Shown here: positions 7,701 to 62,622 of the stretch, one piece after another
Layout of the letters: every line of letters starts with the position of its first letter
Position numbering within the stretch: position 1 is the first letter of the stretch
DNA from: Podocnemis expansa
Lineage: Eukaryota; Chordata; Testudines; Podocnemididae
Direction of reading: 5' to 3'
Assembly (NCBI GenBank): GCA_007922195.1
Contig: ML682220.1
Coordinates: 740,095-804,094 of the forward strand
DNA length: 64,000 bases
Translations under genes and position numbers: made by a program
The notes under the pieces: generated by a model
Told to the model about the DNA's origin: nothing
The model's input: only the letters and a program-made list of their open reading frames with translations
Database searches by the model: none

Positions 7701-10700
7701 ACTAAATTCATTAATTTAAAATTTGCCCCAGCGCAAGCGTCTCAGACAACCAAGCATACCCCAGCAGCTTAACGCTGGCTCAGAGTGCGTCACCGACAAC
7801 AGAAGACTTCTATAGTGTGGGGAAGGTAGCTCTCAGGTCGCTTTTATGTTTAAACAAAAATGTAGGTCCCAGCAGCTATTCATTGTTCGTTTTTGTTTAA
7901 GTCAATCCTCTGCTCAGAGAAAACCAGGCAGAGTTATAGCTATCAAAATACTGAGTTTGAGACAGCAGCAGCAAGATCCTGCATGACCTAGCCCCAGCGA
8001 CTAGCAAAACAAACAAGGAGTCTGGTGGCACTTTTAAAGACTAAAAATTTATGTATTGCTTGAGCTTTCATGGGAGAGATCCCATTTCATCAGATGCTTG
8101 AAGATGGAGAAGTTACAGGGGAGTTCTCCATCTTGAAACGTCTGATGAAGTGAGATTTTCTCCCACAAAAGCTCATGTGATAAATAAATAAAGACTAAGG
8201 CTATGTCTACACTTAGAATGTTAGTTCGAATTGACTGAATTCAAATTAATCAAGTTGAACTAATAATGATAAGTTCGAATTCAGTCAATTTGAACTAACA
8301 TGGCTACACTAGGAAAACCAATTCAAATTAGAATGTCCATGGACAGGACTTACTAGTTTGAATTGGAAGAGAGGCACCATGGGAGGTGTAGAAACATGGC
8401 CCCCAAGAAGGGCAATGCCACCACCCAATCTCCTGCCGGGCTTCATCCCCCCAGCCCAGCACAAGGAAAAGCATCCCCTGCCCAGCCCAGCCAGGGTGCT
8501 GCCAGAGCTGGGCAGGGGATGCTTTCCCCTACACTGGTCTCACAAGGCAGAAGCCTGGCAGGGGATGTTTTCCCCTGGCAGGGCTCTGGGGCCAGGGGAG
8601 AAGGGGCTGGGAGTTTAGACATGCATTTTTTTTAATTCAACCTAATGTTTATTAGGTCGCATTAAACTCTGTGTATAGGACATACCCCAGAAGTGCCACC
8701 TGACTCCTTGTTTGTTTTGCTGAACTAGACTTATACGACTTCCCCTTTGTAACCTCAATGACTGTGTCTCTATTACAGAAACTAGTGAAGTGTGCCATCT
8801 TGTGGGAAAATCAGGCAAGGACATTTGGAGTCCTGCAAAAGAAGCAAGGAGTCCTGTGGCACTTAACAAATTCAGTGGCCCTTGCAAAGACTAACACATT
8901 TATTAAGGATATCTGCTCTTTCTTTCAAGAGAGGGTCATGGAGTGAAGTGGAGAGACAAAATGGGGAGACAAAAAGAAAGTAACTGACAGCTGCAAGCTA
9001 AAAATAAAAGGAAGCATGCACTGAAAATGGGAAGTTCCAAAGGGGCAGCCGTGTTAGTCTAGTTCAGCAAAACAAACAAGGAGTCCTGTGGCACTTAAGA
9101 CTAACAGATTTATATATTGCAGGAGCTTTCATGGAAGAAAATCCCACTTTGTCAGACGCTTGAAGATGGGAAAGCTCATGCAATAAATAAAACTGTTAGT
9201 CTTCAAGTGCCATAGACTCCTTGCTTGTTTTGCTGAAAATGGGAAGTAACTTTAAAATTCACAGTGAAAAGGGAAAACATTACAAATGGATTCAAGTGCA
9301 GTCATGAGATTTACAGTGCTAGCTTCCTCTCTCACCATTTTGTCAATTTCAGACATTTTAGGGCTTTCAAATGCTAGCTCAAGCTTAGATACTGAACTGC
9401 ATTCCTAACACCTTCTCCTGGTAGTAGCCCTATTGTGTAAACACTTGACAAAGCCGATTTCCTCCCTGTACAGTTTATGTTATAAGAAATGGGACAGAGG
9501 CTGCTTGTTTCCCTGGAAGAGAGCACACTTTGCTAGTATTCAGTACACTAGGGGCCTTATTCTCCACCCCCACCCCTTTCTCACCAGTACGAAGTAGCAG
9601 TCACATGATAACACATGAGAATGATACCTTTCTGCATGCTCTTTGCACCAGTTTAAGGGACCATGAATAGTGAATGCAAGACAGGAAAGAAGGATGCCCT
9701 AGGCTGTCACTTGAACATTACAAAAAAAGAGAAAATGGCAGACCTACAAAGCACAACCTGTGTTGTGTCCCACCTAACCACAGAAGTCAGGATAGCCTTT
9801 TGTTTGACTCAGTGGCCTGCTAGACTACAGAGGTATGGCTTAATTACTAAATGAACTTCTTAGATCAAGTTCCAAAGGGGCAGTCGTGTTAGTCTAGGCC
9901 AGCAAAAGAATCAAGGAGTCCTGTGGCACTTAAAGACTAACAAATTTATTTATCACATGTAATTTTTATATAAATAAATTTGTTAGTCTTTAAGTGCCAC
10001 AGGACTCCTTGCTTCTTTTTCTCAGATCAAGTCTCTTGGGATCAGCTGATTTCAATGCACTTTAGAAAAGCTGGTGTTCTGTCAAGCTGATTTTATTACC
10101 TGACATTTGCTAAGGAGGGGTGATTCCTCAGTGCCTCTGCAAATGCCTTCGCACCTTCATCTCCAACCTGGTTACCCCACATTCTGGCAAGGAAAGGCAA
10201 CAAAGAGAAGTAAGAGATAAGGATCTAGTGTCACTCTTACCACAGTTCCCCTCTCCCCAGTTGCCTTATATTATTGACTAGGGTTCAGTCCTGTGTGGGA
10301 CTTAGCCTCCTTCACGCCCACTGATCCTTGTAGGTTTCACTCCCAGCACCTGGCAGGACTGAGCAGTGAGGGTTCAATTCTGCCTTAAGGGCACAGCCCA
10401 GAAGAACACTAGATCATTTGCCTCAGTGGGAGTGTCTCTTGGAGCCCACACACGTTCTCGGGAGCCACTTGCACTTACACCATTTCAGGGGCTACTTTCC
10501 CAATGCATGCTGAGTCTGCTCTGAGCTGGTGTGGTGGAGGGAGCAGCATCCTGTCTCTTCCTTGTCTCTTTGGTTGCTTAGCACAACTTTTGTTTCCATG
10601 CACGCAGGGACTGTTACTCTACTGCATCCTTAGCTAAGACACTGAACAGGTGCTGGGGAGGAGGGGTGCTGTTTTTGCCCAGCTCCCACCTCACACCACT

Positions 10701-25700: not shown

Positions 25701-28700
25701 TTCAGGAGCCAGTGGCAGAGAAGGGGAGTGGTGCTGTTTATGCTGTGCCCAGACCTTCGAAAAGAAGGCCGGTTTCCCCTTTCTAGTCGGTGCTGGAGAG
25801 AGAGGTGTAGGCAACAGGAGGAGCGCCCTCACTGCCTCCGGGGTTGCCAGGATCAGCACCGACCCTGACTGGTCCTGAGGGGTGTCCCGTGTCAAAGACA
25901 CGGGGTTGTGCCACTCCTGCGTTACCGAGGTTGGTACCGAGCTGGTCCTGCTGCCCCGCTGGCATAGTGCCGGGCGGATTCCGGTGCCGAACTGGCACGC
26001 AGTACCGCAGGAGGTCCTGAAGCCTTGGGGTAGGAGTGCTGAGCCTGCTTGGACCTAGGGCACGGCGCCTGCTCCCTGTCCTTGATTGTCCTTGGTTTGA
26101 AGGACAGGCAGATGGAGCAAGTGGTGACCATGTGGCTTTTGCCCAGGCACCAGAAGCACTTCTTGTGGGGATCATCCTGCGGGAAGGCCTTGCCACATCC
26201 AACACAGGGTTTAAACCCCAGCATGGTGGACAATGTAGGAGTGCGATATTCCGGCCCGAGAGGGGAAATCTCCTTTGGTGGAACTAGGTCCACAAATAAA
26301 TGCTCCCAGTCGGGCAAAAGGCTCATAAAGTGATCAAACGGACAGGCTGCTTGTGAAATGCAAGGAGTGGGCAGTTCCACAACCAATGCAAAGGCGGAAG
26401 AAATGAAAAAGGGGAGGGGTCGGGTGGCAGCCACATATATATCCAGGGGGTGGCCGCCTGCCCTCTTCTGACAAGCTAGGGTGAAAAGTTCTGACCAATC
26501 AGCCGCTCCGGCATGGAGACACCTATTACTGAATGCATCCGAGCAGTGCTCGAAGAACTGCTGTGTGGGGAAATGGCTGTCCCTCTCCTGCAGAGCTGCC
26601 TCACAGACACCACATCACATCTCACTACACTATGGCTATGTCTACACTAGCAAATTAGTCCAGGTCAAGGAGGCTTAACCTGGACTGATTTGCTCCCTGT
26701 CTACACTAGTCTTCGCCTAGTTTGAACTAAAAAAAATTTTAAAAGCTTAGTTCAAACTAAGCTCTTAGTTCAAATTAGTGTGATGTAGCTGTGCTGGTTC
26801 GAACAAAATAAGTTTGAACGAAGCGGTTAGTTCAAAGTAGCTGCAGCTTTTAATTTGAACTAGCCATGCTTTTTTAGTTCAAACTAAAAAGTTAGTTTAA
26901 ACTAAGAAACGCATGGCTAGTTTGAACTAACCAGGAACTGCTTAATTCAAACTAAAAAAATCCAAACTAAGCTTCCTGGTGTAGACAGAGCCTATGACAC
27001 AAAATGCAGCCTTACAAAATCTGCCCTGTTCTGGTTCAGTAAACAACAGGGATGTATAGAAACACCAAGATAAAAGACCCGGACCATGGTGAGCACAAGC
27101 ACAGTTGACCTGGGATAGCTGACTCAGGTTCCTGGGGCTATAAAATTAGAGTGTAAACATTTGGGCTCAGACTGGTGCCCTCAGACCCCAAGCCAGCTGA
27201 CCAGGGCCAGCCACAACTCTTTTACTGAAGTGTAGACATACTGCACCAAAGCTGGAGGGGCTTCCATCCTTTGCAGGCTAGTGTCAGGCCGCTAGTGTTA
27301 AGGAATCATTCAGGATGAAAGGTGCTGTAATGTAACTATATTCTCTGGTGCTGTGCCCAGTTGATACATACCCCAAGAAAGTCACAATTTTGTACTTGGA
27401 GAGCTCATCATACAGTACTCTTACTCCATGATCTGTGATCTGATTGACATTCAGCCTAAAATAAGACAGAAGAAAATCAATGCTGTTCAGCAGAGATTAT
27501 AAATGGTTCACCAACTTCATGGATTGCTGGAGAGTTACACACATTTTCCTCTGACATCTTAACAGAGCCTCATACTTAGGTGTGTTAAAGCCATTAACAG
27601 AAATGCGAATTCAGTTTTAAAAACTTACACATTAAAAAAAAAAGAAAAGAAAAAAGAATTCCAAGCAAATGCTCTGTCTGCTGCACACACAATTAGAGAG
27701 AGAAATTCAGTAGCTCAGCACCACACAGACAGATCCCCATCTTCCCAGAGTTTATTGTAATTACAGGCAATGCTCTACTCAGCATCTGCACAAAGACATC
27801 TAACTCAGCAAAACCCAACCCCTCCCAGGCCCCTAGTCATCTGCTAAACATCCATCCCCATACTCAGTGAAAGCCTAGAAAACATAAGAGGACAGAAGCA
27901 TGTTCTGAAGTTCATAACCTGTACGCCCTAGTGAACCATAGGCAAAACACAGAACTTACATCCCCCAGAAAATTTTGTCCCAATTCAGGGCAAAAAGAAA
28001 TTTCAAAAAGTCAAAACACTGAAATTTTTCATGAAACAAGATCCAAAGGGGTAGCTGTGTTAGTCTAGTTTGTGAAACAAACGAGGAGCTCTGTGGCCCT
28101 TCAAGACTAACAAATTTATGTATTGCATGAGCTTTCGTGTGAGAAAATCCCACTTGGTCACATGCTTTGAAGATGAGGTAACAGGTCACACTGTAACAGC
28201 AAATCAAAACAGTTGTTGAGATTCAAACACTGGGAAACAGCATACAGAGGAAGATAAGGTCAGATCACCTGCTATAATGCAAGAAAAATCCAATGTCCTG
28301 ATTAAGTTCTGAAGTAATGCAACCGAATTTGCAAATGAATTCAATTTCCCTAGCTTCTCTTTGAAGCCTTGATTTAGTATTCATTTGTGTGAGCACAGCA
28401 ATTAATAAATTGTTAATGGAGTGACCACGAAGATTGAAATACTGACCCACTGGTTTTAGTTTGTTGTGGTTTCTGGTGTCAGTTTTGTGCCCATTAATTC
28501 TTTTGCACAGAGTCTGTCCTGTCTGTCCAATATATAAGGCAGAGGAGCAATTCTTGCACATGATGGCATACATCACATTGGTGAATGAGCCTGTGATAGA
28601 GTAGCTGGTTTTATTAGGTCCTGTAATAATATCTTTTGTACAGATATGTGGGTAAAGCTGGCAGTGTGCTTTGTTGCCAGGATATGTGCCTGCTCTTTCC

Positions 28701-31700
28701 CAGTGTTTGAATCTTAACAACTGTTTTGATTTGCTGTTACACTCCCCTGCATTTATTCCCCCCATTCCGTAATTTCCCTCATCTTCAAAGCATCTGCTTC
28801 TTTTCATAGGACTCACTGTGAAGTTAGGTTCTGTTGTTACAAATATCACTTTCTGTCCTACAGGAATTAACAAATGGAAATGGAAGTTCTCACGTCAGGT
28901 TGAGAGCCATGTTAACGCTGTTCTGATCAGCAGTTGCTATAAAAGGCAGGTTCCTCCCACCGCTGTATTTCAAAGCCAGGACAGGCCCTTGAATTTTCAT
29001 GTAAGAGAAGTAGTGCCAAAGACCACTTCTCCTTCCCTGCTTTCCCCACATCGCTTTCTCAGAGCTGGCTCACTTTCAAGATGTAATCTGAAATGGACCC
29101 AAATCAAAACCACTGACCTAACCACCACAAACGTCTGGTGGCATTTTTTACAATTTGGATTGAAAATTCACACAGGTTCCAGAGCTGCAGCCATGTTAGT
29201 CTAGTTCAGCAAAACAAGGAGTTCTGTGGCACTTAAAATCTACATAGTTGGTCAAAGTTGCTATCCTATGTTTCCCAGACACATCCCCCAAAAAGATCTG
29301 AAATTCGCAACTCTGGGATGTTCAAAATGCTGATCCAATTTTTGGCTGTCTCTTCTTAATTATCTGCTTTTAAAATATACTGAGGTGATCATGCTGAAAT
29401 AAGACTTTAAAAACTGCACATGGTTTATTTCCAGGAACCTGTCAAGCTTTAAAGGGTTTCTTAAGGCTCACATTGTGCAATAAATCTAAGAGAAACAGTC
29501 ATCTGCCATGACATCCTACCTGATCACGGTAAGCTTATTAAAACAAGGTAGAAGCTGTTTCACTCCATAGTCGTTGATATTATTGTTGTCTAGATCCAGG
29601 CCCAGGTGCTTCTGAAAGTGCTGCATGACAAAGGAAATGGCACTGCAATCGGCCGAATAGGCATTGCAATAGGTGAGTTTCAGGTAGTTGGCCCTCATGC
29701 CTCTGACAGTCTGCTTGGCTAGTTTTTCACTTTGAGTCTCATAAATGCACCTCAGCATCCAAACAAAATTGGGCATGACCTGAATCTGTTTATAACCCTT
29801 AATCCTTGCCCGCAACAGATTCTGCATATGAGATTTCATGCTTGCCAAGAGGTATGTGATGAGTGCCTTTCTTTTCCTTTTCATGGCTCTCGGTGAAACC
29901 AAATGCCTGATGAGCTTCTGCTTGGATTTGGAAAGCAAACCACAGAGGAAAAGGTTGGTAAAATGAAAATGTTCTTTATTTCGGAAAGGGTCTTCTCCAA
30001 CAGACACATTTTGCAGCCACCGAATAGGGAGACAAGTAGTTGGACTAGTCTCACTGGAAGAGCATTCTGCAAAAAACTTCAGTAGTTCTTTTGTACTCGC
30101 TTTCTCTTCTGTAACAAGGAACAAAGCGGTGAAAAAAGACTGTAAGGTCAGGTGGAAAAATTCAAACGAGGACTGCTCTCCACAGCCACCATAGTCATAA
30201 ACTGTCCTGAGGAACCCCAGATGCAAATCCTGCTCTGACATATTTAAGGATGTGACTTCCTCCTGGTCAAAGATAAAAAGAGATTTCTCCATCCCCATAT
30301 GTGCTATTTTACCCAAGGAGAACAGCGTTTCCTTTTTTGTCCTGAATGTCTCCACTTGGCTCCTGGTGTTCTTCTTCAGCAAATCTGTTTTCAGAGTTCG
30401 GTTCAAGTGAACTTCACTCATAAGCAAAAAGATGTCTGTCAATGTAACTGTGTAGCTTGGAAGCTCATGACTGTCAAACGTGGAATGGAAATGTTCAAAG
30501 CATTTAAAGATAATCCAGCAAAATAAAGGCACTGAACACAAACTGCAGAGACTGGGGTTTGCTTCCAGCTGATTCAATATTAACACACAACACTTCTCAT
30601 CTCTGAAGAAATTCCTCGCATATTCCTTCAGGTTATTGCTGGAAAACCCTCGGAGCAGTACTTTCTTCCTAATGATGTTCTGATGGACCTCTGTTCCTGT
30701 CCTTGCTGTCAGAACTTTCCTTGATCCCTTAAGAAGCTTTCCACTCAGAAGATTCACCAGCAGGACAAGTGGATGAGTGGGCTCTTCTGGTGAACAGATA
30801 TCAGGGATGCTGTTCAGGTCAAAGTCAGAATGCATCTCATCAAAGCCATCAAATGTGAAGAGTACTGTGTGAGGGAACTGTAGGATGTGGCTGAATACCT
30901 CCTCAGGGTCCTGGTCTGGGTAACAGTTGTATTTGAACAGGAGATCTTTCAAACAGATGGCTTCATTCTCCTTAAAACAGTTAAACATCCTGCACCTGAA
31001 CCGGAAGAAAAATTTGGCACCTACATCTAATTTTCCTTTGGCCCAAAGATTTTGCATCTTTTGCAGCAAAATGGATTTTCCAATACCTGCATCACCAAAA
31101 ACATATACAGTCTCTCCATCTTCATTGATTACCCCAATTCTATCATCAAACAGATCTTCTAAGCAGCTCACGTTGCCGAGGCTCTCATTGGTATAACTGA
31201 CCAGCTCAACAAGACTAGCAGCATAGGTTTCCTCAAGCAGCATCTCCTCCTGCTGAGCATAGGACATAACAAACTTTGTGTCCCGTCCCAATTCATATTT
31301 GAGTTTCTGACGGTACCTGCTAACTAAAATGAGAATTGATTATTAAAGGAGATCGAATCTAACATAAGGACTACACTATACAAAGGCTGCCATGCTTGAG
31401 AACTAAAGAGCAATGATTGGACATATACACTCATTTATGACTGTGGATCTTAGGTAAATAAAAGCAACAGGCTACTGCTAACTCCCTTCTACAATATTAC
31501 ATCAAATACTTGCTCTCTCTGTTTGTGTTTAACCTTATGATCTTGACCTCTGCAAATTTTGCAAAAAGTTTTAACTAGAATGCACTGTTCATTTCTTCTC
31601 TCAGCACAAAAAGCTACAGAAGTATATACAAAGTTGGGTCTTAGTTTTCCATTAAATGATCAATATTTAGAAACTTCCATTTCCAGTACCAAATGTGTCA

Positions 31701-47215: not shown

Positions 47216-47270
47216 CCAATCCATTTCATGCCTCTGAAGTAACTCTGATTATCTCCTTACCTTACACTGT

Positions 47271-48405
47271 TCCAAAGAGGCAGCAGTGTTAAGTCTACTA
47301 AAGCAAAAAAAAGCAAGGAGTCTTGTGCCACTTAAAGACTAACAGATTTATCTATCACAGGAGCTTTCATGGGAGAAAATCCCACTTCATCAGACACTTT
47401 GAAGCGGGGGAATTTACAGAATGGGATGAAAATAGATGCAAGGGAGTATAAAACATGGGATCAGGTCATACTGCAACAGCAAATCAGAGCATTTGTAAAG
47501 ATTCAAACTCTGGGAAACAGCACACAGAGGAGGGTGAAGTCAAATTACCTGTTATTATGGGAAAAGCAGCCATAGCCATGATTCAGTCCTGTTGCAGAGG
47601 TCTCATTAAGGACCTACAGTCTATTTGAAAAGATGACCCCTCACTCTCTCCCCCCTTGGGAGACAGACCTCTCCTTGCCTACAGACAACCCCTGAATGTT
47701 AAACAGATACTCACCAGCAACTAAAAACAGAAACATTAAAGGAGGCACATATCCCTGCAACAAACCATGCTGCCAAAAGACACCAGAGGACCAAATCAAG
47801 CCAGTTACTCCGTCAAAGGGTCATTCACCTGCTCATCCACTAATGTGATTTATGCCATCATGTGCTGGAAATGCCCCCCCCCATTATAGATTGGTCAAAT
47901 AGGACAGCCCACACACAGAAAAATAAATGGGCACAGAACTGACATCTCACACACACACACACACACACAAAACAGTTGCTGAGCACTTTCATCTTCCTAA
48001 TCACTCCATTGATAATTTGCTAATGATGGTCCTCAAGAAAATCAATGGGACATCAGGACTTGAAAGAGAAAGAGCCAAAATCCAACTAATATGCAAATTA
48101 GACTGTGTGAAAGCAGAACTGAATCATAACTATGGCTTCTTTTCCCATTATAACAGGTAATTTGATTTCACCTTCCTCTACGTGCTGTCTCCCAGAGTTT
48201 GAATCTTTATAAATGCTCTGATTTGCTCTTGCAGTATGACCTGATCCCATGTTTTACACTCCCTTGCATCTATTTTCATTCCATTCTGTAAATTCCCCCT
48301 CTCGAAAGCATCTCACGAAGTGGGATTTTCTCCCACAAAAGCTCATGCGATAAATAAATCTGTTAGTCTTTAAGTGCCACAAGACTCCACACTCCCCCCC
48401 TGCCC
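47271..48405 (+). mobile_element. Complete fold-back PLE unit (1135 bp) with 12-bp duplication
   Basis: Left arm 47271-47590 is the inverted 3' UTR; the middle 47590-48160 is GIY-YIG domain coding on the plus strand; the right arm 48161-48400 is the 3' UTR in normal orientation. The arms match over about 280 bp. ACCTTACACTGT stands on both sides (47259-47270 and 48406-48417), perfect over 12 bp. So the inverted arrangement was present at, or made during, insertion. Confidence 0.9.
47590..48160 (+). pseudogene. PLE GIY-YIG domain, decayed
   Basis: Pieces SSTNVIYAIMCWKCPPP, then EHFHLPNHSIDNLLMMVLKK, GLERERAKIQLICKLDCV and LNHNYGFFSHYNR-stop parallel the 28-kb copy. The YIG segment is damaged by a C run (47874-47882), and a (CA)n expansion sits in the coding part at 47950-47970. 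Confidence 0.8.
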
Positions 48406-48417
48406 ACCTTACACTGT

Positions 48418-54326: not shown

Positions 54327-54696
54327 GTGTTTTGATTTGCTGTTACAGTGTGACCGGTTCCTCCAACTTACACTTCCCTGCATTTATTTATTACCATTCT
54401 GTAAGTTACTCCATCTCCAAAAAAAATGCAAGGAGTCCCGTGGCACTTAAAGACTAACATTTATCTATCATATTTATTTATTTATGCAGTAAATAAATCT
54501 GTTAGTCTTTAAGTGCCACAGGACTTCTTGCTTTTTTTGCTGGACTAGACTAACACGGCTGCCCCTTTGGAACCCATCTTCAAAGCATCTGATGAAGTGG
54601 GATCATCTCCCACAAAAGCTCATGCAAAAAATAAAATTTGCTAGTTTTTATGTGGCAGAGGACTGCTTGTTTGCTTGATACCTTTAATTATTATGA
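54327..54696 (+). mobile_element. PLE 3' UTR copy inside the hAT, itself interrupted
   Basis: TTTTGATTTGCTGTTACAGT at the start and CTTCAAAGCATCTGATGAAG after the inner insertion; ends GGACTGCTTGTTTGCTTG. GGCACACC flanks it (54319-54326, 54697-54704). Confidence 0.8.
54421..54573. mobile_element. Inner PLE fold-back unit
   Basis: GCAAGGAGTCCCGTGGCACT and its inverse around a short AT centre, ending GACTAACACGGCTGCCCCTT. CCATCT near both junctions is a possible short duplication. Confidence 0.75.
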
Positions 54697-54859: not shown

Positions 54860-55029
54860 CTAATTCAGCCAAACCAGCAAGGAGTTCAGGAGCAATTAAA
54901 AGACTGAACAGATTTATTTATGGCATGAATTTTCATGAGAGAAAAATTCAAGAGTATTTTCTCCCCAAAAAATCTCATGTGATGAACAGATCTGTTAGTC
55001 TTTTAAATGCCAACAACTCCTTGTTTGTT
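54860..55029. mobile_element. PLE fold-back unit with 9-bp duplication
   Basis: CAGCAAGGAGTTCAGGAGCA on the left; TGTTAGTCTTTTAAATGCCA and ACTCCTTGTTTGTT on the right. CAGGTGCAT at 54851-54859 and 55030-55038. More diverged than the 9-10 kb units. Confidence 0.8.
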
Positions 55030-60800: not shown

Positions 60801-62622
60801 GTCATGAATATAAATTATTTTTTTCAATTGGGTCCCACAAAAAAACCTTTGAAAAGCCACTGTACTAGGTTAATACACGAACAGTGGAGAATTTAAATAT
60901 GCAAACCAGGAAGCTACAATTCCCATAATAGTTTCAGTTTTGCCACAATGATATGACTTACTGTACATGTGTCATACTGTACTAGATTACAAAGTTTTAC
61001 TTCCATGGGATAATTTTGTTTGATAAACAAGAGATCAGTTTTTCCATATCTTGATACACATGTAGCATGGCAAGGAAAGACCCAGACTCTATATAAATTA
61101 ATCAGCTTTGACATTTGTTTTAGCCTAGCTGCATTTCTTTAAACTCCCTAAGAATCCCTCTGATGAGAAAAATAAGCGGGAGTGATGACTGGCCAGAATG
61201 AGGGTTAATGTTACTTAATAAAAAACAGATTCTAATCTTCAAATTCCCAATTGGTATCTGCATTAGTCTAGTTCATCAGAAACAAGCAAGGAGTCTGACG
61301 GCACCTAAAAGACTAACAAATTTATCTATCACATGAGCTTACATGGGAGAAAATCCCACTTCATCAGATGCTTGAAAATGGGGAACTTTCACCCTCAAGC
61401 ATCTGAGAAAGTGAGATTTTCTTGCACAAAAGCTCATCTGATAAATAAATGTTAGTCTTTTAAGTGCCATCAGACTCCTTCTTTGTAATCCTGCAAGCTA
61501 ATCCATAGAGATAGTCCTGTTGGCCCAGGGCCCGACACACATAAGGATTGTGGGATCAAGCCCAGTTGGTTATTTTCAGTAGAAAGTCACTATGGTAACT
61601 TGATTTTATCTGTAATTCTGATTAGCTAAGCATTTCTAGATATGTTGCCACATCACCTCTGGCTAGGGCCTCATAAACTAAGCAAGTCCAGCCTGCTCAG
61701 TGGTTAGACACACCACCAAAAAAAAGAGTCTATATGTTGCAGAGTGGTGCTGGTGACACCGCCTGTGGAATTCTTCTTCCAAATCAGTACTGAACTGGGG
61801 GGAGGAGTACAGATCACTGTATACATCACTCCCTCTTCAGTGCCAGGCCTGGGCTGCGGAAGATAGTGATCCAACCAGTGGAGCAAATTCAGCAATGAAT
61901 CCTGGTCCTGGTCACGTGCCATTAGAGGCACATGGTGCATATGTTAAGCAGCACTAAATCAAACCCCCAGGACAGTGTTACAGGGCCTCTAATATTAAAA
62001 AGGTCAAGTCTATTAATTACTTGTAGTCATTAAAAATCCTATGGCTCTTTTACAAGAGTGGAAACAATTAAAATTTATGTCCTTGCCAGAGTCCAGGTCA
62101 AGGAGTTATGTTCAGTCTCCTGAAATTCCCTCTGTTGCTTCAGTCGTATACCATAATCTTTTCTGTCCCAAACTATTTTGTAAATTTGCCAAGTGCTTGT
62201 GAGCAGCTGATGCCACTCCACAGATGGCTGCATGTTAGTTGAGGATAAAGTAATTCATAGGCTGCTGAACATGCTTTACGCACAACAGGCCAGATTTACC
62301 TTTTTCACTGAAGCCAGCAAAGTAACAAGAGGGATGCATTGGTTTGATACATTTGGAAAGGACTGAAATGCAACTTTAAGGGACTATGCTACATGGCAAA
62401 TGTTATTGTAAAAAACTATTTAAATGTCAAATAATAATACAATATCCACTTCAGTTCAGGCTTTTAAGATACACAGTGATGCCTACCTTTTTATAATGTG
62501 GAGATGGGAGACCACAGACACAGTCGTTCATCTGATAACTTCGACAGGTCAGTACTTTTCCCTCTTGTGTGTGAACATTAACTTCTATTGGATGGTAAAT
62601 ACCATCTTCAACTCCTTCTTGC
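57668..62622 (-). CDS. GGCT: GGCT, 3' half of the spliced coding region
   Basis: Gamma-glutamylcyclotransferase converts gamma-glutamyl amino acids to 5-oxoproline and the free amino acid in the gamma-glutamyl cycle; it is a cytosolic enzyme (established). Two exons are visible on the minus strand, 62622-62487 and 57817-57668, giving 94 residues plus stop. That is about half of the 188-residue human protein. The exons with the YGSN substrate loop lie beyond 64000; nothing resembling them occurs in 62623-64000. The intron between the two exons carries a 1.4-kb CR1, a hAT MITE and PLE fragments. Neighbouring NOD1 on the same strand supports the call. Confidence 0.93.
57838..57892 (+). mobile_element. 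PLE 3'-end fragment in the GGCT intron
   Basis: GATTTGTTAGTCTTTAAGTG and CCACAGGACTGCTTGCTTC, single arm, about 20 bp from the GGCT terminal-exon acceptor. Confidence 0.75.
57953..59340 (-). mobile_element. CR1 LINE (about 1.4 kb) in the last GGCT intron
   Basis: Starts with the inverted 3' end AGAATCATAGCATGGGAAGG. A 103-codon minus frame (59003-58692) has GVPQGSVLGPVLFNIFIGDL, the reverse-transcriptase motif region. Nearby pieces are STAERDLGITVDHKLN (58630) and others in broken frames. The element is 5'-truncated and inactive. Confidence 0.9.
59576..60235 (-). other. 219-codon open frame of unknown nature
   Basis: The middle (about 59700-60100) is GC-rich and its translation (Gly/Pro/Trp/Arg-rich) looks like noise. 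The outer parts (LMMHLNGLLLKFLDNLQCYL and LVHHLSIFFDNPSTIGTSHL) are more protein-like and could be two pieces of a transposon protein separated by a GC-rich insertion. I do not recognise it. It lies in the GGCT intron. Confidence 0.3.
60677..60862 (+). mobile_element. hAT MITE, family A (186 bp)
   Basis: CAGCGGTTTTCAAACTTAGG and CCTTTGAAAAGCCACTG. CACTAAGT (60669-60676) and TACTAGGT (60863-60870) match 6/8. Confidence 0.88.
61245..61495. mobile_element. PLE fold-back unit (about 250 bp)
   Basis: Left arm with CTAGTTCATCAGAAACAAGC and GGGAGAAAATCCCACTTCAT; right arm with its inverse and CTTTTAAGTGCCATCAGACT. Arms are about 110 bp. Possible but poor duplication TAATC near both ends. Confidence 0.75.
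61496..62486. other. GGCT intron, no recognised feature
   Basis: Plain intronic sequence up to the donor at 62486. Confidence 0.3.
62487..62622 (-). CDS. GGCT: GGCT internal exon with the catalytic glutamate
   Basis: The exon of 136 bp has a TTTACAG acceptor and an AAG|GTAGGC donor. It begins with the last base of a codon and then reads QEGVEDGIYHPIEVNVHTQE, followed by CRSYQMND and SPHYKK. The second residue E (codon 62618-62616) aligns with Glu98 of human GGCT, the proposed catalytic base. The protein is clearly diverged from human (GIYHPIEV against GMYVVIEV) but alignable without gaps. Confidence 0.94.

Follow-up and report, generated by a model that had tools for sequence, protein, structure and literature searches.

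A head-to-head Penelope-like element insertion with a one-sided tail, and its relatives, in the turtle Podocnemis expansa

In a 64,000-nt stretch of the Podocnemis expansa genome (assembly GCA_007922195.1, contig ML682220.1, positions 740,095 to 804,094; "the window" below), two copies of a Penelope-like element (PLE) stand head to head, with both 3' ends pointing outward, as a 1,135-bp unit at positions 47271-48405 between flush, exact 12-bp duplications of the target. This unit is an old PLE insertion and an ordinary product of such elements, probably made by target-primed synthesis of complementary DNA (cDNA) from both sides of one staggered break, with the two products joined head to head. 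The unit itself is unexceptional, and it is the surrounding set of similarly built units that is useful.

Architecture and identity of the unit

The arms of the unit form inverted repeats of 275 nt that are 90% complementary, with 522 nt between them. The right copy is 5'-truncated at about 47590 and reaches its own 3' end, and the left copy, lying in reverse, is shorter. The right arm begins inside the end of the open reading frame (ORF), so that the arm consists of the ORF end plus the 3' untranslated region (UTR). A 3' tail of 46 nt is carried by the left arm only, and the outer end of the right arm is formed by 17 unrelated C-rich nucleotides followed by the duplication (Table 1). A sequence-only reading of the window had proposed a PLE with GIY-YIG coding between its arms and a perfect 12-bp duplication around them, and both proposals were confirmed, the first by matches of core fragments to turtle PLE proteins. 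Its description of the left arm as an inverted copy of the right 3' UTR was correct as to the inverted repeat but missed the ORF end that the arm also includes, and the symmetry it ascribed to the unit is contradicted by the one-sided tail and the 17 unrelated nucleotides.

The core could be read in broken plus-strand frames as the PLE linker and GIY-YIG region. Two fragments from the window aligned to turtle protein P0003 at residues 236-264 (66% over 29 residues) and 292-355 (41% over 64 residues), that is, at positions that flank and overlap the GIY-YIG domain of this protein (residues 255-304; Pfam E-value 1.3e-6, above the cut-off). When the fragments from the window, L025 and L043 were themselves scanned against Pfam, none matched GIY-YIG, a result that speaks against GIY-YIG membership. 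Truncation has removed the reverse transcriptase (RT) from the window copy, and the RT fragment of a longer copy, L043, matched RVT_1 with an E-value of 5.5e-4, below the Pfam cut-off. The best protein matches came mostly from turtles, with frogs and lizards lower down. The traits of GIY-YIG PLEs that were found comprise a GIY-YIG endonuclease region downstream of the RT in one ORF, inverted pseudo-long terminal repeats (pseudo-LTRs) with a 12-bp duplication, and a tail on one end, which in such elements is optional and 30-40 bp long. The sense strand of the left arm contains, at 47349-47393, CTGATGA...GAAA with a stem, a hammerhead-like motif; no hammerhead ribozyme was matched in Rfam at E-values up to 1.

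Table 1 Features of the head-to-head unit and its target site
Feature	Positions	Strand	Basis
Left target-site duplication, ACCTTACACTGT	47259..47270	+	Exact 12-nt direct repeat
Left-arm 3' tail, sense end ...CTGCCTCTTTGGA, absent from right arm	47271..47316	-	Tail end common, to 1 nt, to 44 copies (this one counted)
Left arm (pseudo-LTR), ORF end and 3' UTR reversed	47317..47591	-	Inverted repeat
Head-to-head joint, 8-nt TCAG(T/A)CCT, 7/8 common to the two copies	47583..47590	+	Alignment with six long copies
Core of right copy, 5'-truncated coding (RT-to-endonuclease linker, GIY-YIG region) broken by frameshifts and stops and containing a (CA)n run	47592..48113	+
Right arm, ORF end (stop 48158-48160) and 3' UTR, tail-less	48114..48388	+	Inverted repeat
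Unrelated C-rich filler, 17 nt, from right arm to duplication	48389..48405	+
Right target-site duplication, ACCTTACACTGT	48406..48417	+	Exact 12-nt direct repeat

Head-to-head units in the genome, their duplications and their tails

With the unit as query, the assembly (2.39 Gb, 1,487 contigs) yielded 101 matches; a first look brought up 16,071 candidates, of which 40 were scored. All 40 scored places, the window's own among them, were taken with their flanks, a set biased to long copies. From the window and the 39 other places, 31 head-to-head units were assembled by hand, the window unit counted, so that the layout, which the sequence-only reading had presented as less familiar, recurs in 30 more units of the same genome. 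The list derives from 34 joints by the removal of six and the addition of three by hand (L012, L038 and 54421-54571). Four joints were not taken as one arm was without a 3' end (second joint of L011, L026, first joint of L031, L040), and the others removed were the nested single copy at the second joint of L032 and L048, which coincides with the window unit. Nine of the listed units lie in the window, among them the unit described above; the other eight are at 872-985, 8003-8189, 9036-9231, 9871-10020, 28042-28796, 54421-54571, 54876-55029 and 61265-61484, and one end could not be called in each of the pairs at 872, 8003 and 28042.

Four of the fetched places (L026, 2178-3377; L031, 2052-3365; L040, 2018-3165; L011, 1997-3397) contain an inverted 5' piece and a single 3' end, an arrangement reminiscent of L1 5' inversions. 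Sequence resembling GGCTATGTCYACAC adjoins truncated or interrupted PLE arms at window positions 8190-8250, left of 1702 in L011, after 1833 in L016 and after 3318 in L030, and apparently represents another repeat family inserting at PLE arms.

The flanks of the units were scored for duplication-like repeats. A score of at least 8 was reached by 15 of the 31 hand-listed units against 4.1% of 930 mispaired flanks, and a score of at least 10 by 10 of the 31 units against 0.4%; under loose placement, at least 12 was reached by 0.2% of the mispaired flanks. Among adjacent copies paired automatically, scores of at least 8 were obtained for 10 of 27 head-to-head pairs (9 of 26 once the window unit is counted a single time) against none of 27 in the other three orders, the mispaired head-to-head flanks of these pairs giving 1.9% of 702. 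L048, which is in none of the 31 units, is present in the 27 automatic pairs and in their null, which is slightly too high on account of the true pairs inside it.

An empty site could be read for a sister unit. The unit at 54422-54573 is nested inside the 3' UTR of an older PLE (window 54333-54672) and is flanked by an 11-nt duplication with one mismatch; joining its flanks restored an unbroken UTR, which could be aligned with two further copies (175-178 nt, 75-80%). The empty site is thus paralogous, and it belongs to the nested unit, not to that at 47271-48405.

The one-sided tail of the window unit proved to be a regular feature. An end counted as tailed if no more than 25 nt separated it from the distal end, and as tail-less if it fell 26-50 nt short. 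Exactly one tail was present in 26 of the 31 units; four could not be called in full (three with a tail and one tail-less, each with a second end that received no call), and L015 was tailed at both ends by the threshold, probably a miscall caused by the left match running into the duplication. L030, a wide and near full-length minus/plus pair that was left out of the list, would score as tail-less plus one end without a call, its right end being cut by another repeat. Among 59 one-armed copies, 29 were tailed, 17 tail-less and 13 without a call; the row 54333-54571, which merges the host copy with the nested unit, was kept among the 46 that were called. If ends were independent, 47% of units would have unlike ends, and at least 26 of 27 would be expected with P = 3.5e-8, a value that takes no account of the list having been made by hand after the data were seen. 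An exact search of viral contigs with 22 nt of the tail gave no hits. In L017, positions 2399-2425 form the tailed arm of a head-to-head unit in which this arm is just 27 nt long and consists of the tail alone.

The next four bases past the 44 tailed ends (window and L009-L047), read in the sense of the element, were strongly ACTT (A in 40, C in 35, T in 32 and T in 29 of the 44), a target or pairing preference at the flank of the tail end. In the units at 9036 and 9871 the bases at the ACTT positions lie inside the duplication and therefore belong to the target, and in the nested unit two such bases (AC, 54572-54573) stand between tail and duplication, as if they had been copied from RNA. We infer a short pairing of the target 3' end (AAGT) with the RNA.

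At the joint of the window unit, the ends of the BLAST matches alone leave a gap of 11 nt. Over 29 units this gap was negative in 12, 0-5 nt in 11 and larger in 6, and it fell between -7 and +5 in 23; part of this overlap may be due to chance.

Origin of the arms and routes of formation

The arms of the window unit were compared with a consensus of 47 other copies, from which the left arm differs at 23 of 275 positions (8.4%) and the right arm at 22 of 275 (8.0%). Nine derived states are common to the two arms, as many as are shared by only 0.09% of 1,120 background pairs, and the private changes number 14 in the left arm and 13 in the right, corresponding to a decay of about 5% each since insertion. 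The nine common states together with the equal private changes indicate that both arms derive from one source copy or from closely related ones, and that decay has since proceeded equally in each. Ranked by plain distance, each arm has nearer relatives than its partner (rank 11 and 8 of 47), an effect put down to private decay. The unit is one insertion event, with its copies in head-to-head order, one tail and a closely related source for both arms. The sequence-only reading had held that the inverted structure arose before or during a single insertion and had made the relative age of the arms a check; the single flush duplication, the private changes and the nearly equal distances from the consensus all uphold it.

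Seven other two-armed units were tested in the same way. A close common source was found for the arms of L021, L023, L034 and L038 and a moderately supported one for L032, and no clear common source for L022, where 28% of background pairs share as many derived states. L047 (G000:C108), which has an exact 13-nt duplication, has arms that share no derived state and show 10 and 25 differences, which hints that one insertion drew on two different RNA sources. The copy L002/L047 had also been considered as a second, fold-back-amplified copy of the window unit, with which it looked collinear (query 2-1118), but its long arm is about 30 nt longer and its flanks differ, which makes it an independent event of similar layout.

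Under the two-sided synthesis that we favour, the GIY-YIG enzyme of a 5'-truncated, endonuclease-bearing PLE would make a staggered break with its cuts 12 bp apart, and each exposed 3' end would prime reverse transcription of the element RNA; that both strands are cut and extended, and that two start sites are used, follows in vitro work on a lizard PLE. On the left, synthesis would begin at the distal start site and leave the tail; on the right, it would begin about 44 nt further in and give a tail-less end. The left cDNA would stop after about 320 nt and the right after about 800 nt, and we infer that their ends would meet head to head, probably via pairing of the 8-nt near-match, after which fill-in would yield the duplication.

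Several points weigh against this account. It leaves the 17 nt of filler on the right unexplained, and 16 of the 31 units have duplication scores under 8, which their age may explain. Moreover, the derived states common to the arms in six of the eight tested units fit equally a second arm copied from the first, as when one cDNA (or, in the 2013 proposal, an antisense template) folds back and copies itself. Such snap-back has been put forward for Penelope of Adineta vaga with palindromic joints (PMC3846280), and five of the eight units (the window unit, L021, L023, L034 and L038) share clearly more derived states between their arms than the background pairs, as L032 does moderately. A self-copied arm, however, cannot bear a tail that its template lacks, and the copying of a tailed arm would have to halt 28-49 nt short every time in a set where one tail is the rule. 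At the window joint there is no palindrome, the arms being separated by the 522-nt core, and the arms of L047 look derived from two sources, although uneven decay could account for this in part. We consider snap-back improbable for these reasons.

No more probable in our estimate is twin priming on one tandem (dimeric) RNA, in which the tailed arm would come from the RNA 3' end and the tail-less arm from an upstream pseudo-LTR, a variant of two-sided synthesis that is not well separable from the use of two RNAs. It would account for both the single tail of each unit and the common source of its arms, and 5' inversions of L1 arise by a related route. In the lizard PLE, both genomic organisation and transcription are in tandem repeats (PMC11167929). 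No tandem pseudo-LTR copy was identified in the window and the fetched places, where no systematic search for one was made; the window unit, being 5'-truncated, would not show a pseudo-LTR, ORF, pseudo-LTR arrangement. In 10 of 25 units it is the tailed arm that is longer (by hand-entered lengths, including the left reach of the 61265 unit, for which the script value was an artefact), so that this arm cannot simply be equated with the short end.

That two insertions followed one another, or that an inversion came later, is very improbable and was rejected on the single flush duplication round both arms, the equal arm ages with their equal private changes and the 30 other units in the same order, even though insertion of PLE into PLE does occur here, as in the nested unit. 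Least probable of all is a false palindrome of the assembly: long-read assemblies can contain fold-back artefacts, but arms that differ at 10% of sites inside one exact, flush target duplication speak against this.

Comparison with known elements and significance

In L1 twin priming an inverted joint likewise lies inside one target duplication, the two pieces coming from different parts of one RNA, whereas both pieces of the turtle unit hold the 3' end. Closer parallels are found among PLEs, and here the suggestion of the sequence-only reading that the layout is less familiar found no support. A 2013 study (PMC3846280) reports PLEs that are flanked by inverted pseudo-LTRs, often with duplications of 8-10 bp and with a 31-bp tail on one end; inserts of A. 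vaga with inverted pseudo-LTRs have 9- and 10-bp duplications, with 8 bp for a mobilised gene, and self-priming on an antisense template was proposed there from head-to-head repeats with palindromic joints. Inverted pseudo-LTRs and 3' extensions are also named as peculiarities of PLE copies in PMC8969392. The turtle unit resembles the endonuclease-bearing Penelope elements of A. vaga (Pen2a_Av and others; PMC3846280) in its inverted head-to-head pseudo-LTRs, its short duplications and its tail on one pseudo-LTR, which is optional in A. vaga, and these too include 5'-truncated members with inverted pseudo-LTRs, one of which is described without a duplication. It differs in its 12-bp duplication, the 46-nt overhang on the left, 5' truncation without a direct pseudo-LTR and the lack of a palindrome at the joint.

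PAc, a Poseidon-clade PLE of Anolis carolinensis (PMC11167929), provides a biochemical comparison. Its enzyme initiates internally, and it both cuts the two target strands and extends them; the tail is interpreted as the sequence from one RT start site to the other. The proposed course of events in the turtle is the same in the two-strand reaction and in this reading of the tail. At the same time, no apparent difference in start between the strands was seen for PAc in vitro, whereas the ends of the listed turtle units are nearly always unlike; and the flank preference at the turtle tail end is ACTT, whereas the cleavage motif of PAc is ATT.

The layout of the unit is therefore already known, and the fresh point is the one-tail rule. 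No statement of a strict rule of this kind was found in the PLE literature that was searched, most subscription papers being outside its reach, and the available part of PMC12910113 adds nothing further on the inverted units or the tail. The stronger form of the rule, that two-ended insertions of this PLE family are obligately unlike, with the distal RT start (and so the tail) on one strand, the proximal start on the other and never two alike, seems to us evenly balanced between true and false.

PLE integration is poorly understood, and the dense units of this genome amount to many independent products in which RT starts, joint and duplication can be seen. If the one-tail rule holds genome-wide, it tests ordered synthesis from both target strands against self-priming. 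If the stronger form is true, integration would be an ordered, asymmetric two-strand reaction, carried out for example by a predicted enzyme dimer, and the tail hitherto regarded as optional would become a readable label of the synthesis on each strand.
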